The translations under genes were made by a program, and so were the position numbers. The notes below the pieces were generated by a model. That model was not told where the DNA came from and did no database searches. It saw only the letters and a list, made by a program, of their open reading frames with translations. From Promethearchaeia archaeon (GTDB lineage Archaea > Asgardarchaeota > Lokiarchaeia > Sigyniarchaeales > SOKP01): a stretch of DNA of 64,000 bases. Positions 2,489 through 49,681 of the stretch are shown in pieces. The stretch is taken from assembly GCA_029856045.1 (NCBI GenBank), contig JAHQWG010000039.1:56728-120727 (forward strand). Direction: 5' to 3'. Within the stretch, counting starts at the first letter, position 1. The number at the start of each line of letters is the position of its first letter.

Positions 2489-3712
2489 TTAAATCCTTTC
2501 AATGATTGTAGCAACCCCTTGTCCTCCACCCACACATGCCGTAGCGAGACCAAGGTTCCCTTCTTCAAATTGTAGAATCCTTGCAAGAGTTCCGATTAAT
2601 CGCACACCCGTCATTCCCAATGGGTGTCCAAGAGCAATAGCTCCACCTTTCACGTTTATTTTTTCATGTGGAATACCCAGCATTTTCTTTGCATATAATG
2701 GAACAATTGCAAATGCTTCGTTGATTTCCCAAAAATCGATATCCTCAACCCGTAATCCAGCGCGAGTAAGAGCTTTTTTACTTGCAGGAACAGGACCTTG
2801 TCCCATAACACTGGGATTAACACCTGCCCATGCCATCGCCTTAATTTTTGCTAGGGGTTTGATTTCGAGCTCGTCAGCACGAGACAATGATATAAGGACA
2901 CAACATCCTGCCCCTGTATTCAATGGAGATGAATTTCCTGGGGTAATTTGAGCATTCCTTTCAATTCCTTCTGAAACAAGACGGAGTTTTTTCATAGTTT
3001 CCATATTGGATCCTTCTCGCATTGATTGGTCATATTTGATTATTTTTTTAGTACCATCTGGGAGAGTTATTTCGATAGGAAGGATTTCTCCGTCAAAAAA
3101 TCCATCTTTTCGCGCCTTGACAGCTCTATTATGGGAAGTAAGACTCCAATAATCCATATCCTCCCGAGTTATATCAAGATTCTGTTCCCATAATTTTTGT
3201 GCCGTCTGAACCATTGAGTATCCGGTTTTTAAATCGTATTTTGTATGGTTTGGATAGATTTTTTCATCGGTTAATTCATAATGCCGGGCAGTTAAATCAG
3301 TTCCACGGGGAATTCTTGTCATATGTTCCATGCCACTTGCAATAACTATTTCTGAGTTACCTGTTGCGATCTCCATTGCCCCGATATGAATACTTGTCAT
3401 ACTTGATGCGCATTGTCTATCAATACCCATAGCAGCGACCGTTTCAGGTAATTCTGCTAAAAAAACAGTATGGCGTCCTCCATAAAGAAAGTTTTCTTTT
3501 ACTTGATTAGCACAACCTGTGATAACTTCATCAATTTCGGCTGGATCGAATTTTGCTCTTGCGATTATTTCTTTAATTACTAAGGATAGTAATTTATCAG
3601 CTGGAATTTTATAAAAAACATCTCGCTCTGGTTGGTTGGGACGACTTCTAGACATTGGGGTACGTAAATAATCCACAATAACAACTTCTCTTAATTCTGG
3701 CATTTTTATCAT
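2489..3712 (-). CDS. acetyl-CoA C-acyltransferase (thiolase)
   Basis: A 407-residue thiolase, full length for the family. It cleaves 3-ketoacyl-CoA to acetyl-CoA and a shortened acyl-CoA, or runs in reverse. The catalytic residues are in place: acyl-accepting Cys about 101 in DRQCASSM, His about 363 in GHPLGMTG, and the second Cys about 393 in CVGGGQG. It is the last gene of a minus-strand operon after an acyl-CoA dehydrogenase and an enoyl-CoA hydratase, with a 10-base gap, so it probably performs the last beta-oxidation step. Starts at residue 1 (MIKMP) or 4 are both possible. The motif set is that of FadA/FadI-like degradative thiolases rather than the SCP2-type fragment found at 32.2 kb. 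Confidence 0.93.
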   Translation of the reverse strand: MIKMPELREVVIVDYLRTPMSRSRPNQPERDVFYKIPADKLLSLVIKEIIARAKFDPAEIDEVITGCANQVKENFLYGGRHTVFLAELPETVAAMGIDRQCASSMTSIHIGAMEIATGNSEIVIASGMEHMTRIPRGTDLTARHYELTDEKIYPNHTKYDLKTGYSMVQTAQKLWEQNLDITREDMDYWSLTSHNRAVKARKDGFFDGEILPIEITLPDGTKKIIKYDQSMREGSNMETMKKLRLVSEGIERNAQITPGNSSPLNTGAGCCVLISLSRADELEIKPLAKIKAMAWAGVNPSVMGQGPVPASKKALTRAGLRVEDIDFWEINEAFAIVPLYAKKMLGIPHEKINVKGGAIALGHPLGMTGVRLIGTLARILQFEEGNLGLATACVGGGQGVATIIERI

Positions 3713-3722
3713 TTAAACGATA

Positions 3723-4520
3723 TTATTTTCCAATAAAAAAGGGTTCCTTTTTTTCGTTTAATGCAAATACACCAATTTTATAATCTTCTGATTCAGCTGA
3801 TTTTATTTGCATTTGTCTTTCATTTTCAAGATGTTCTTCAAGTGGTGTGCTAAGTGCTTCAAAAAATAATTTTTTAGTTCTTGCATAGGTTAAGGTTGGT
3901 CCTTTAGCAAATCTTTGAGCCCAATTTAGTGAAGCCTCTTCTAATTTTTCTGCAGGGACAATTTCATTAATAAATCCAAGTTTTTTCATTTGTTCTGCAG
4001 AATAAGTATCTCCAAAAAAAGACACTTGTACAGCTTGTTGCCAAGGGATTTGGCGACTTAATAAGATTGTTCCAGCAAATCCAGGAATTAAAGCAAGTTT
4101 ACAAAAGGATTGTCTAAATTTTGCATATTCTGAAGCAATTATAATATCACATGAAAGCGCAAGGTTCATCCCTGCTCCAACAGCCCATCCATTTACGGCT
4201 GCTATAACTGGTTTTGGATAAAGGCGCAAAATTAATGCAATTTTGTAAAGATCTCTTGTTAAATCATCCATTAATTGACCTGGTGTTCCATTTTCAATAC
4301 TTAACTTAAATTGTTTTATATCTCCGCCTGCTGAAAAAGCCTTTCCTGAGCCAGTAATTATTACACATCTTATATCACTATTGTCTCGAAGAGATTCTAA
4401 AACATCTAATAATTTTTTTCCCGTATCTTTATTTAATGGATTGGAATTCTCTGGATCAATGAATTTTATCGTTGCGATATTATCTTTGATTACTAATTTA
4501 ATTTTTTCTTTCATCATCAA
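3723..4520 (-). CDS. enoyl-CoA hydratase/isomerase family protein
   Basis: A 265-residue crotonase-fold protein of typical length. It carries the first oxyanion-hole region GSGKAFSAGGDIKQF (about residues 57-71) and the second, AVNGWAVGAGMNLALSCD (about 109-126). The usual catalytic Glu of hydratases (GG-x-E-L) is not obvious in the second half, where the sequence reads RQSFCKLALIPGFAGT, so isomerase or another crotonase activity is possible. It lies 15 bases after the dehydrogenase and 10 before the thiolase in one operon, which favours a beta-oxidation role. An AGGAG ribosome site precedes the ATG. Confidence 0.88.
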   Translation of the reverse strand: MMMKEKIKLVIKDNIATIKFIDPENSNPLNKDTGKKLLDVLESLRDNSDIRCVIITGSGKAFSAGGDIKQFKLSIENGTPGQLMDDLTRDLYKIALILRLYPKPVIAAVNGWAVGAGMNLALSCDIIIASEYAKFRQSFCKLALIPGFAGTILLSRQIPWQQAVQVSFFGDTYSAEQMKKLGFINEIVPAEKLEEASLNWAQRFAKGPTLTYARTKKLFFEALSTPLEEHLENERQMQIKSAESEDYKIGVFALNEKKEPFFIGK

Positions 4521-4535
4521 TCTCCTTTTTTTTAT

Positions 4536-5756
4536 TTATTTGCCCCACATTCTAACCATTTCTCTTGAAATAAGGTATCTCATAATTTCTACAGTACCAG
4601 CTGATATTTGTCCAACTTTTGCATCTCGATAATAGCGTTCTAATGGATATTCTTCAGTGTATCCAAGTCCACCAACAACCTGTATGGCTTCTTGAGTAAT
4701 TTTAACTGCATCATCTGCAGTTCGGGCCTTAATTGCAGCTACTGAAGCTCTACAATAATGACCATCATCAAGCATTCTGGCAATTTGAATTACAGCCATT
4801 CTATTTATCTCTATAGACATAAACATTTCACTAAGTTTAAATGAAATCCCCTCAAATGAATAAAGAGGTTTTCTAAATTGCACACGTCTATGTGCGTATT
4901 TGTATGCCACTTCAAATGCACTTCTTGAGATGCCGATATATTGAGACGCAGTAAAAGTTCGTTCCCCATCAAGACCAAAAAGCAATACATCTAATCCCGC
5001 ATTTTCTTTATGAAGCACATTTTCAACTGACACCTTACAATTATTAAATCGCAGATGTGAATTAGGCATTCCTCTGCGTCCCAGATGTTTATAATCTTTG
5101 ATAACTTCAAAACCAGGAGTATCAGTTTCAAATATAAATGCTGTAATACCTTGATGAGGTCTTACTTTATCATTTGTTATTGCATATAAGCAAATATAAT
5201 CAGCCACACTGCCATTTGTTATGAAACACTTCTCTCCATTGAGGATATAATGATCCCCTTCTCTTTTAGCTTTTAATTTCATTCCACCAATTGCATCAGA
5301 TCCCCCTGTAGGTTCTGTTACACCTATCGCACCAATTTTTGTGCCATCAGCAATTCCTGAAAGAAATTTCTTCTTTTGCTCTGGAGTTCCAAATTCTATA
5401 ACAGGACCAGCAAATAAACATGAAGATGCTCCAAATGTACTTGCTAAAGCATAATTGAAAGCAGTTAATTCTTCACCAAAAATAGTACGATATAAAACCC
5501 CTTTACCAAGACCTCCAGCCTCTTCTGGGATAATTATATTTAAATAAGGCTTCATTTTTCGTAAAGTTTCAACTACAAGCTCATAATTTCTCTCCCTATC
5601 AATTTTTTCTACAACAGGTTCAACATTTTCTTTACACCACTTGCGTACTTCCATCCGGAAATTATTTTCTTCATTGGAATAATAGTGCAGAGTTTTAGGC
5701 ATACAAGAATATCCATATTCCAAATTCAAATCTTCAAAATGAACATGTCCTTCCAT
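4536..5756 (-). CDS. acyl-CoA dehydrogenase
   Basis: A 406-residue FAD-dependent acyl-CoA dehydrogenase, first gene of the minus-strand operon. It has the flavin/substrate motifs GVTEPTGGSD and NGEKCFITNGS (about residues 150-185). It also has the C-terminal GGLGYTEEYPLERYYRDAK, in which the Glu of YPLER occupies the place of the catalytic Glu of medium-chain dehydrogenases. It introduces the alpha-beta double bond and passes electrons to ETF, for which candidate genes lie 4 kb away on the other strand. The N-terminus has about 25 extra residues before the first conserved helix; a later start at MPKTLH (residue 19) is possible. Confidence 0.92.
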   Translation of the reverse strand: MEGHVHFEDLNLEYGYSCMPKTLHYYSNEENNFRMEVRKWCKENVEPVVEKIDRERNYELVVETLRKMKPYLNIIIPEEAGGLGKGVLYRTIFGEELTAFNYALASTFGASSCLFAGPVIEFGTPEQKKKFLSGIADGTKIGAIGVTEPTGGSDAIGGMKLKAKREGDHYILNGEKCFITNGSVADYICLYAITNDKVRPHQGITAFIFETDTPGFEVIKDYKHLGRRGMPNSHLRFNNCKVSVENVLHKENAGLDVLLFGLDGERTFTASQYIGISRSAFEVAYKYAHRRVQFRKPLYSFEGISFKLSEMFMSIEINRMAVIQIARMLDDGHYCRASVAAIKARTADDAVKITQEAIQVVGGLGYTEEYPLERYYRDAKVGQISAGTVEIMRYLISREMVRMWGK

Positions 5757-44957: not shown

Positions 44958-45500
44958 TTACATTTGAGAATCCTCAAGACACCTTCTCGCGATAAATTGA
45001 AAAGCTTTCTCTACGTTCTCGCCTGTCTTCGCTGAAGTTTCCAAATATTCACACTTCAAACGCGTTGCCAACTCTTCACCTTCTTCATTACTAACTTTAC
45101 GCTCAAGATCAATTTTATTCCCAACCAATATCATTGGGATTTCCTTGTTTACTGACTTATTAATTGAACTAACCCAGCCTGGTATTTTCATAAGAGAGTC
45201 AGAGCTAGTGACGTCATAAACTCCTAAAGCGCCATTTGAACCCTTAAAGTAAATCCGTCTTAGCTTTTGAAATTGAGCTTGACCTCCTATATCCCATAAG
45301 AGGAGTCTTACTTTTTTATTATCGATATTGACATCTTTGATAAGGAAATTACTACCGATGGTCTTTTTGAGATCTTCATTAAAAGTCTTTTTTATATAAC
45401 GCAACAGAAGGCTAGTTTTACCAACTCCTCCCGCTCCAAAAAGAGTGATCTTATATTTAAAAACTTCATCAGATTGTTCTAAAATTTTAAATCCCTCCAA
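44958..45500 (-). CDS. Ras/Rab-like small GTPase
   Basis: About 180 residues. P-loop FGAGGVGKTS, switch I TIGSNF, G3 WDIGGQ (Arf/Galpha-like Gly-Gly-Gln), G4 VGNKIDL and G5 TSAKTG are all canonical. It ends ARRCLEDSQM without a lipid motif. Start: the tracked TTG (45500) overlaps a strong ribosome site GGAGGGAT. The next in-frame candidate at the right distance is ATT at codon 6 (45485), so initiation may be at AUU as in the etfA case. There is no ATG, GTG or TTG between there and the P-loop. Adjacent to ThrRS; no evident link. Confidence 0.9.
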   Translation of the reverse strand: MEGFKILEQSDEVFKYKITLFGAGGVGKTSLLLRYIKKTFNEDLKKTIGSNFLIKDVNIDNKKVRLLLWDIGGQAQFQKLRRIYFKGSNGALGVYDVTSSDSLMKIPGWVSSINKSVNKEIPMILVGNKIDLERKVSNEEGEELATRLKCEYLETSAKTGENVEKAFQFIARRCLEDSQM

Positions 45501-48347: not shown

Positions 48348-48463
48348 TATCTATTATTGAAAAGATCATATATTAAAATGGATAAGGATATATTTTATAA
48401 ATAATAATATAAAAAAAATTTAACAAAAAAAAATCTAACAAAAAACTAAGGATATTGATTGGA

Positions 48464-49681
48464 ATGCCTTTTTTTGAACAAGAAGAAGTGCAGAAAATTA
48501 GATTTCTGCATTTTACTATTAAAAAATTAGAAGATAAGTTTAAAAATGACGAAGTTTTTACCGTTGATGAACTAAACAATATTTTAGATTATACTATGCT
48601 ATTAAACAAGAATTATGGAAATATTAATCACTTGAGAATCTTAAATGAAATGGATATTACGAAAGAGTATATTGATCCATTGGAAAGTAAGCCAATCCAA
48701 ATAAGAGACCTATATTATGAATGTGCTCGTGTATTAGAGGTTTTAGGCCAAGGTTATGAGAGATTATCACAAAAAAGAGAAGAGGAAGATTACCCCGAAG
48801 ATGCGATAATTGCAATGTTAGAGAGTAGTAAAATTTATAAGGCATCTGCATACTTTTCAGCTGCAGCCATGCATCAAAATTACAAGGGAAAATCATTACT
48901 TCCATTAAATTTAGAGATAAAATCTGAAGAAGCACGCTTGTTTGCACAAAGTATTTCTGCTCTTAATGAAGAAATGAAGGGAAATTTAATATTTGCTTCC
49001 AAATTATATGCTGGATTAAGTGCTTTATCAAAAAGAATCTTTTATTTGAAGGAACATGATGAAATTAAGAAACATCAATTAAGAGCACAAATGCATTTTG
49101 ATATGGGAAAAGCATGTACATTAATTGTTGAAGTTGCCTTGGATTACCATATAGATGAAAATCGAGTAGATAACCTCAAACAAAAAGCATGCTTCTATTT
49201 TAATAAAGCAAAGGAGATTTGGGAAGAAATGATAAATACAATCCCAAATTTGAAAGAAGAAGAAATACATAGTATTAAAGATAATATTACTGTATCGGAT
49301 GATATTTTTAAAGAAATAAAAATCGAAGATCTCCCTTATGAGAAAATTAAAAAGATCCAAGATCCAGAACCTGTTATTATTATTCCGGAAAATCTTGCAC
49401 CTTTTGTACCTAAAGCAACTATTTATTTATCTAAAATAGTCCCCAAAGATCTAAATATTACAAGGTTCAAAAAATTTAAAAATAAGAGAATCGAGAAGAA
49501 AACATCATATTCAGAACAGGAAAAACTAGAGAGTCAAAAATTCGGAATTTCCAGAACGATATTGGAACTAAAAAAAATGAAGAAAGAAGGAGAGATTGGT
49601 TTAGAAAATTACACCGAACTATATGAAAAATATAAAAATAAACTTAATGAAATTGAAATAAAGATAAAAAATTTGAAATAA
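48464..49681 (+). CDS. BRO1/ALIX-like helical protein
   Basis: About 405 residues, cytosolic and helical. The order of segments follows BRO1 domains. RDLYYECARVLEVLGQGYER with the following SSKIYKASAYFSAAAM corresponds to the LYEKACVLFNLAALYSQ..A region. LNLEIKSEEARLFAQSISAL corresponds to the DLS.E....LMLAQAQE helix. VSDDIFKEIKIEDLPYEKI then PVIIIPENLAPFVP correspond to the NDFIYHERVPDL ... VKPTP region. A charged coiled-coil (about 350-408) closes the protein. In eukaryotes BRO1 proteins recruit ESCRT-III. The match is by pattern only; a TPR-like helical protein is the alternative. Start ATG 48464 or TTG 48455. Confidence 0.5.
   Translation: MPFFEQEEVQKIRFLHFTIKKLEDKFKNDEVFTVDELNNILDYTMLLNKNYGNINHLRILNEMDITKEYIDPLESKPIQIRDLYYECARVLEVLGQGYERLSQKREEEDYPEDAIIAMLESSKIYKASAYFSAAAMHQNYKGKSLLPLNLEIKSEEARLFAQSISALNEEMKGNLIFASKLYAGLSALSKRIFYLKEHDEIKKHQLRAQMHFDMGKACTLIVEVALDYHIDENRVDNLKQKACFYFNKAKEIWEEMINTIPNLKEEEIHSIKDNITVSDDIFKEIKIEDLPYEKIKKIQDPEPVIIIPENLAPFVPKATIYLSKIVPKDLNITRFKKFKNKRIEKKTSYSEQEKLESQKFGISRTILELKKMKKEGEIGLENYTELYEKYKNKLNEIEIKIKNLK

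Follow-up and report, generated by a model that had tools for sequence, protein, structure and literature searches.

The window analysed here, a stretch of 64,000 nucleotides of Lokiarchaeal DNA, contains a gene (48464..49681, + strand) whose product is predicted to combine a Bro1 fold with a C-terminal helical hairpin, as delineated by the open reading frame, the family alignment, an AlphaFold2 (AF2) model and the fold matches of the latter. As shown by structure prediction, about the first 335 residues are expected to adopt the Bro1 fold, with a two-helix hairpin after them. The product is probably an archaeal BRO1-domain protein serving as a scaffold or adaptor of the ubiquitin/ESCRT branch tied to ubiquitin removal.

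The open frame extends from an ATG at 48464 to a stop codon ending at 49681 and encodes 405 residues; the reading-frame listing puts the start at a TTG at 48455, but the alignment with relatives begins at the ATG instead. The gene is matched in 26 other genomes of the source's family (E about 1e-122 or better, 51-92% identity, homologues in this identity range coming from genomes of the source's own genus and family) and, judging from this conservation, is a real gene that is under selection. The first homologue search gave a match in 32 of 58 genomes, all except one belonging to family f1, and the 69 homologous loci found across named genomes are, every one, from Lokiarchaeota or Lokiarchaeia. 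Distant homologues were reached in f27 through the family profile (E 2e-15) and then in f5, f6, f7 and f20 through a search with one of those. The Asgard-wide profile A4 (an alignment of 23 rows, which itself includes sequences from the six main families f1, f20, f27, f7, f5 and f6) matched, at E<=1e-3, 74 of 222 Asgard genomes: 56 from f1, nine from f20, three from f27, two from f7 and one each from f5 and f6, with weak partial matches in f21 and f25. Families f2-f4, from the source's order, were represented by 13 listed genomes, none of which was matched at that threshold. Divergent to the BRO1-like gene lies an ATP-grasp-like gene, a name read from its sequence, whose family is found at 36 of the 38 compared loci, and a small-GTPase family, named in the same way, occurs near the gene at 33 of them; in the window the small GTPase gene stands at 44958-45500 (-).

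The AF2 model, obtained from 54 Lokiarchaeal sequences and no templates, has a pLDDT of 85.4 and a pTM of 0.75, residues 327-349 being unreliable. In the published description of the Bro1 domain, as given in the available text (PMC3230590), helices alpha1-3 are followed by strands beta1-beta2, by three TPR-like hairpins (alpha4-9) and by an extended loop on the concave face, and the elements of the model come in this same order. Three N-terminal helices (residues 6-62, comprising H6-27, H34-47 and H56-62; 48479..48649, +) and a two-stranded beta-hairpin (residues 68-79, E68-70 and E77-79; 48665..48700, +) are, from the predicted secondary structure and that description, the equivalents of the alpha1-3 bundle and of beta1-beta2, respectively. 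They precede a core of six long helices (residues 83-259; 48710..49240, +), which contain E86, A161-Q162 and F177/L181 and which structural and profile alignments equate with the three TPR-like hairpins alpha4-9. A tenth helix of the model (residues 265-285; 49256..49318, +) leads into a mostly extended, proline-rich stretch (residues 286-334; 49319..49465, +), which is predicted to be mostly coil, with pLDDT dropping to 72-55, and which, going by the structural alignments, probably corresponds to the concave-face loop of Bro1, VIA-align pairing model residue 334 with HD-PTP 350. Within it QDPEPVIIIPENLAPFVP (residues 299-316; 49358..49411, +) is the family's most conserved stretch by the invariant columns of the 54 sequences, Q299-P303, P308-N310, A312 and P316 of this extended loop being conserved without exception. 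The chain ends, in the model and by profile matches, with the C-terminal helical hairpin (residues 351-404, H351-374 and H380-404; 49514..49675, +).

In the comparison of the model with the PDB by Foldseek, ranks 1-21 were all Bro1 domains or ALIX (E 1.3e-5 to 1e-3), Nro1 following at rank 22 (2.6e-3); the TM-scores were moderate (0.41-0.52 by query) and the rmsd high, as is expected if the curvature of the model differs from that of Bro1. With VIA-align, the guidance for which states that models that are mostly helical and have no clear match typically peak at Z 14, the best 16 entries were all Bro1-containing (Z 19.8-22.1, 275-296 residues aligned, rmsd 3.8-4.9, 10-12% identity), and the best non-Bro1 protein, SRP68, came 17th at Z 11.9; families missing from the VIA-align lists were not counted as evidence. 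Both aligners ranked Bro1 domains first, namely those of HD-PTP, ALIX, yeast Bro1 and BROX. The same outcome was obtained for a paralogue of 660 residues (L132), folded separately from its own alignment, which overlaps that of the window protein (pLDDT 72.8, pTM 0.50): its top 21 Foldseek entries were all Bro1, and 16 Bro1-containing entries reached Z 20.2-21.8 in VIA-align versus 11.9 for SRP68. The N-terminal 66 residues of this paralogue resemble the N-terminal lobe of RAD51/Dmc1 (VIA-align Z about 10-11.5), in line with the Pfam HHH_5 assignment. On these predicted models the first-pass annotation, which had read the gene as BRO1-like, holds for the fold, and the structural comparison with ALIX and Bro1 that it had proposed as a check places Bro1 domains far above TPR proteins. 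Among Bro1p, ALIX and BROX, identities of 20-24% and rmsd values of 2.6-3.1 are reported in the available text of PMC3230590, whereas the figures for the archaeal model are those given above.

The core of the Bro1 domain is itself TPR-like, and this lends some substance to an improbable reading, namely that the protein is a TPR-like helical repeat protein that has come to look like Bro1 by convergence. TPR proteins such as SRP68, sNASP and LGN do have the helical core in common with the model, but their Z values are at most 11.9, and the Bro1 entries lead all other folds by about 8-10 Z in two separate predictions and over the whole domain. Furthermore, the model has a beta-hairpin and an end loop, which TPR proteins are not known to have. 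A confident structural match to TPR proteins or to another helical family, one half of what the first-pass annotation had named as telling against its proposal, did not occur; the other half, the absence of a BRO1 profile match, did.

Indeed, the Pfam BRO1 model gave no match to the window protein at E<=10, and BRO1 was absent from the 25 families listed when the 54 family members were scanned at E<=1, so that the profile search suggested in the first-pass annotation came back empty and convergence gains a point in its favour. A search of the source genome with PF03097 returned nothing, and across 227 Asgard genomes it gave five weak matches, none above the cut-off. Since neither the window protein nor its family reaches the PF03097 threshold of 35.1 bits, the protein is classed as having the BRO1 fold only, and not as a member of PF03097. 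PDB profile searches with the family and Asgard-wide profiles found no Bro1 match, and a single ALIX sequence gave no match to A4, A2 or A3 in hhalign. When A4 was instead aligned with four Bro1 domains (A5), 259 co-linear columns were matched with a score of 39.2 (E 3e-4, probability 39%), in excess of the maximum of 60 column shuffles (20.9). The control comparisons of A4 with TPR-type proteins, however, scored 39.2 (106 columns, a single TPR protein), 34.0 and 20.1; the profile score is equalled by a TPR protein, as convergence would have it, and was dropped as a proof of homology, the evidence at this level being compatible with a Bro1 relationship and not decisive. The family alone scored 24.2 against Bro1 (E 0.03), and its cluster came first among 27 neighbour families (26.2 vs 22.5), none of those compared being TPR proteins. 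Against the convergent reading, no Pfam TPR model exceeded its cut-off, TPR_2 being seen in two of the 54 members with a best E of 0.17. BRO1 was the best or second Pfam family in all three f27 homologues, under the cut-off (E 5e-4, 2e-3 and 0.089), which is weak evidence; the Pfam BRO1 matches of L066-L068, judged by coordinates, may be about one hairpin out of register. One further protein (L069) with a Pfam BRO1 match (E 6e-8) has TPR matches alongside and was excluded as a homologue.

At single positions the profile alignment pairs E86 with HD-PTP E113 (posterior 0.99) and A161-Q162 with A185-Q186 (0.98). E86, A161 and Q162 are found in 54, 53 and 54 of the 54 members, and the Bro1 residues with which they are matched are invariant in the four domains; Bro1 N120, K141 and E187, on the other hand, have V93, E112 and S163 as partners. 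The window protein resembles the Bro1 domains of HD-PTP, ALIX, yeast Bro1 and BROX in its predicted fold, in the order of the elements and at these conserved positions, but differs from them in the missing Pfam match and NDFIYHE motif. The letters of NDFIYHE..P (N316, F318, I319, Y320 and P325 are invariant in the four Bro1 domains) are absent from the family, and the profile alignment stops before this region. The first-pass annotation had lined up four successive segments with BRO1 landmarks: their outline and order are borne out, but the residue-by-residue matches are not. In particular, VSDDIFKEIKIEDLP, taken for the equivalent of FIYHERVPDL, reads 'IVKNNLKAID', 'IVKDLLKNND' and similar in relatives, and the model places it across the end of helix 265-285 and the residues that follow. 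The proline-rich stretch, the length and the helical tail behind the domain, to which the same annotation had also pointed, are all present.

The only other Pfam/NCBIfam hint was to a phosphopantothenate synthetase (PPS_PS at residues 302-356, E 0.02; PRK13761.1, E 0.023). That the protein is a fragment of such an enzyme is scarcely credible: the hint lies far below the cut-off, occurs in one of the 54 members and covers the extended loop only, and the fold disagrees, and it was rejected.

Past the Bro1-like domain the similarity to ALIX claimed in the first-pass annotation gives out. In ALIX and Bro1 the Bro1 domain is followed by a V domain and a proline-rich tail; here the approximately 70 residues after the domain form a hairpin, in place of a V domain or CaaX tail, and no V domain or proline-rich tail is present, so that the window protein is not an ALIX orthologue. 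The last 60 positions of the family profile match the ends of Asgard UEV (Vps23-like) proteins from other families (three of them, with E 2.9e-4, 4.0e-4 and 1.1e-3), and in the two of these that were scanned Pfam weakly detects Vps23_core. The hairpin is like the ESCRT-I steadiness box (Vps23_core, PF09454) in being a C-terminal helical hairpin that matches Asgard UEV ends, but three other proteins, one RING-like, one a bactofilin and one a membrane protein, are matched by its profile about as well, in a comparison set most of which had been chosen for matching A1, and it is, therefore, not specific to ESCRT-I. Searched against the source genome, the hairpin profile found the gene itself and one match at E 0.12, and no ESCRT protein; PF09454 did not match the window protein, and its search of the source genome points elsewhere. 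As non-ESCRT proteins match about as well as UEV proteins and no ESCRT protein of its own genome does, a steadiness-box identity was rejected for the hairpin. A link of the protein to ESCRT-I through the hairpin is possible on these profile matches. An interaction with ESCRT-I has been proposed, in the available text of PMC10936438, for Asgard proteins containing a steadiness box, and a Lokiarchaeal steadiness-box protein is described in that of PMC9192718 as binding ESCRT proteins in yeast two-hybrid assays.

The case for ubiquitin removal comes from relatives. In four Asgard genomes of the source's class (G051-G054, families f5-f7) a JAB domain (PF01398), which belongs to the deubiquitinase-type JAMM metalloproteases, precedes a BRO1-like domain in one chain (E 1.9e-15 in G051, 7.3e-15 in G052, 1e-14 in G053 and 7.1e-15 in G054; these JAMM/JAB-BRO1-like fusions are L156:577-2337, L157:579-2312, L158:586-2385 and L221:5954-7744). 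The JAMM motif, H-x-H-x7-S-x2-D, is intact by eye in all four. A PRS2_N-AAA gene lies downstream of the fusion in three of the four (two by Pfam, that of G053 by similarity) and is absent in G051. Two f20 genomes (G116, G113) encode a stand-alone homologue that has a zinc-ribbon-like C-terminal end; its gene adjoins one for an Arf/Ras-like GTPase and has JAMM, Ras-like, actin-like and RING genes within about 7 kb (Pfam having been run on the G116 neighbours only). Paralogues with a RAD51-type HhH domain N-terminal to the BRO1-like domain (L077:760-2946 and 3428-5431, L079, L132:9296-11275) form tandem pairs in some genomes, and in an f27 homologue (L066:1274-2836) the BRO1-like domain is followed by an acidic linker and a further C-terminal part. 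The HhH, JAMM and zinc-ribbon versions indicate that the BRO1-like domain has been shuffled within Asgard archaea. The cluster of the two f20 genomes (L223:507-14152 and L224) holds, with the BRO1-like gene, those for Arf/Ras-like and Ras GTPases, an actin-like protein, JAMM and RING proteins, a V-type ATPase subunit E and a DEAD-box protein of 1400 residues.

These same neighbourhoods are what makes plausible, if less likely, a reading in which the Bro1 fold is genuine and inherited, but the protein works as a general Asgard adaptor (for JAMM proteases, small GTPases, AAA ATPases or membranes) and does not bind ESCRT-III, a role in ESCRT having been acquired later, in eukaryotes. The genes that accompany the relatives are of the JAMM, Arf/Ras-like GTPase, actin-like and PRS2-type AAA kinds and not of ESCRT-III, the small-GTPase family recurs at most of the compared loci, as stated above, and the HhH-bearing paralogues point the same way. 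Furthermore, the two ESCRT-III genes of the source genome are on contigs C15 and C36, away from the BRO1-like gene on C41, and the C-terminal helices of the two ESCRT-III proteins are without tryptophan, unlike CHMP4, the tails of which engage the Bro1 domain via Leu and Trp (available text of PMC5501724); both observations also tell against a plain ALIX-type role in the preferred reading. What speaks against a late ESCRT role is that eukaryotic Bro1 domains have the ESCRT-III site in common, according to the available text of PMC3230590 and PMC5501724, and that its hydrophobic pair is possibly retained: L202 and I206 of HD-PTP, the pair in contact with CHMP4 (available text of PMC5501724), map, at low posteriors, to F177 (0.28) and L181 (0.43), while L189 maps to S165 (0.64) and falls on Ala/Ser. 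The BRO1-like protein may bind ESCRT-III; for eukaryotic Bro1 domains and ESCRT-III C-terminal peptides, Kd values of about 50-130 uM are given in the available text of PMC3230590 and PMC5501724. The gene adjoining one of the ESCRT-III genes reads as Vps4-like from its sequence. Also adjoining an ESCRT-III gene is one for a protein of 571 residues with a zinc-ribbon-like N-terminal part and a C-terminal hairpin (L149:1-1713, G000:C15), which is possibly the Lokiarchaeal steadiness-box protein.

In the preferred reading, that of an adaptor within the ubiquitin/ESCRT branch, the Bro1 body would grip a partner helix in its groove, either an ESCRT-III tail or another protein of the ubiquitin system, the C-terminal hairpin would dock the protein onto a helical headpiece, e.g. 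that of ESCRT-I, and membrane remodelling would thereby be coupled to ubiquitin removal. The coupling to deubiquitination is suggested by the JAMM fusions of four genomes of the same class and by the JAMM, RING and GTPase genes found nearby in a pair of genomes from a different group. Yeast Bro1 both recruits Doa4, a deubiquitinase, and stimulates it (available text of PMC7653365), and, by analogy, the JAMM fusion would fit a shared role, with one chain doing what takes two in the eukaryote: in both cases a Bro1 domain is paired with a deubiquitinase, but Doa4 is a separate enzyme, whereas the Asgard relatives carry JAMM in the same chain. A more far-reaching and rather doubtful proposal is that an old Asgard BRO1 superfamily joins deubiquitination to ESCRT, the JAMM-BRO1 fusions being the ancestral one-chain form, later split by eukaryotes into Bro1/ALIX and a recruited deubiquitinase, while the stand-alone Lokiarchaeal protein would bridge BRO1 directly to ESCRT-I via a steadiness-box-like hairpin.

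The published record is divided on whether BRO1 domains predate eukaryotes. Eme et al. 2023 name Bro1 among Asgard homologues, as a new homologue of an ESCRT-III regulator (PMC10307638); like the family described here these are from Asgard archaea, but the available text names neither the proteins nor the lineages. Makarova et al. 2024, according to the available text of PMC10936438, could not identify Bro1 orthologues in Asgard archaea. The disagreement could come from a Bro1 fold that escapes sequence models, and the present protein family, carried by 56 genomes of a single Lokiarchaeal family and having homologues in five others, provides a concrete protein for testing, from a lineage, the Lokiarchaea, related to the ancestors of complex cells. 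The JAMM fusions, of which there is none in the titles and abstract openings of the literature searched (bioRxiv and most subscription papers being outside its scope), suggest that BRO1 may already have been coupled to ubiquitin removal before eukaryotes arose.

The source genome itself has five JAB-domain matches (G000:C25, G000:C41:52645-52998): four share a contig, and the fifth is approximately 52 kb from the BRO1-like gene.
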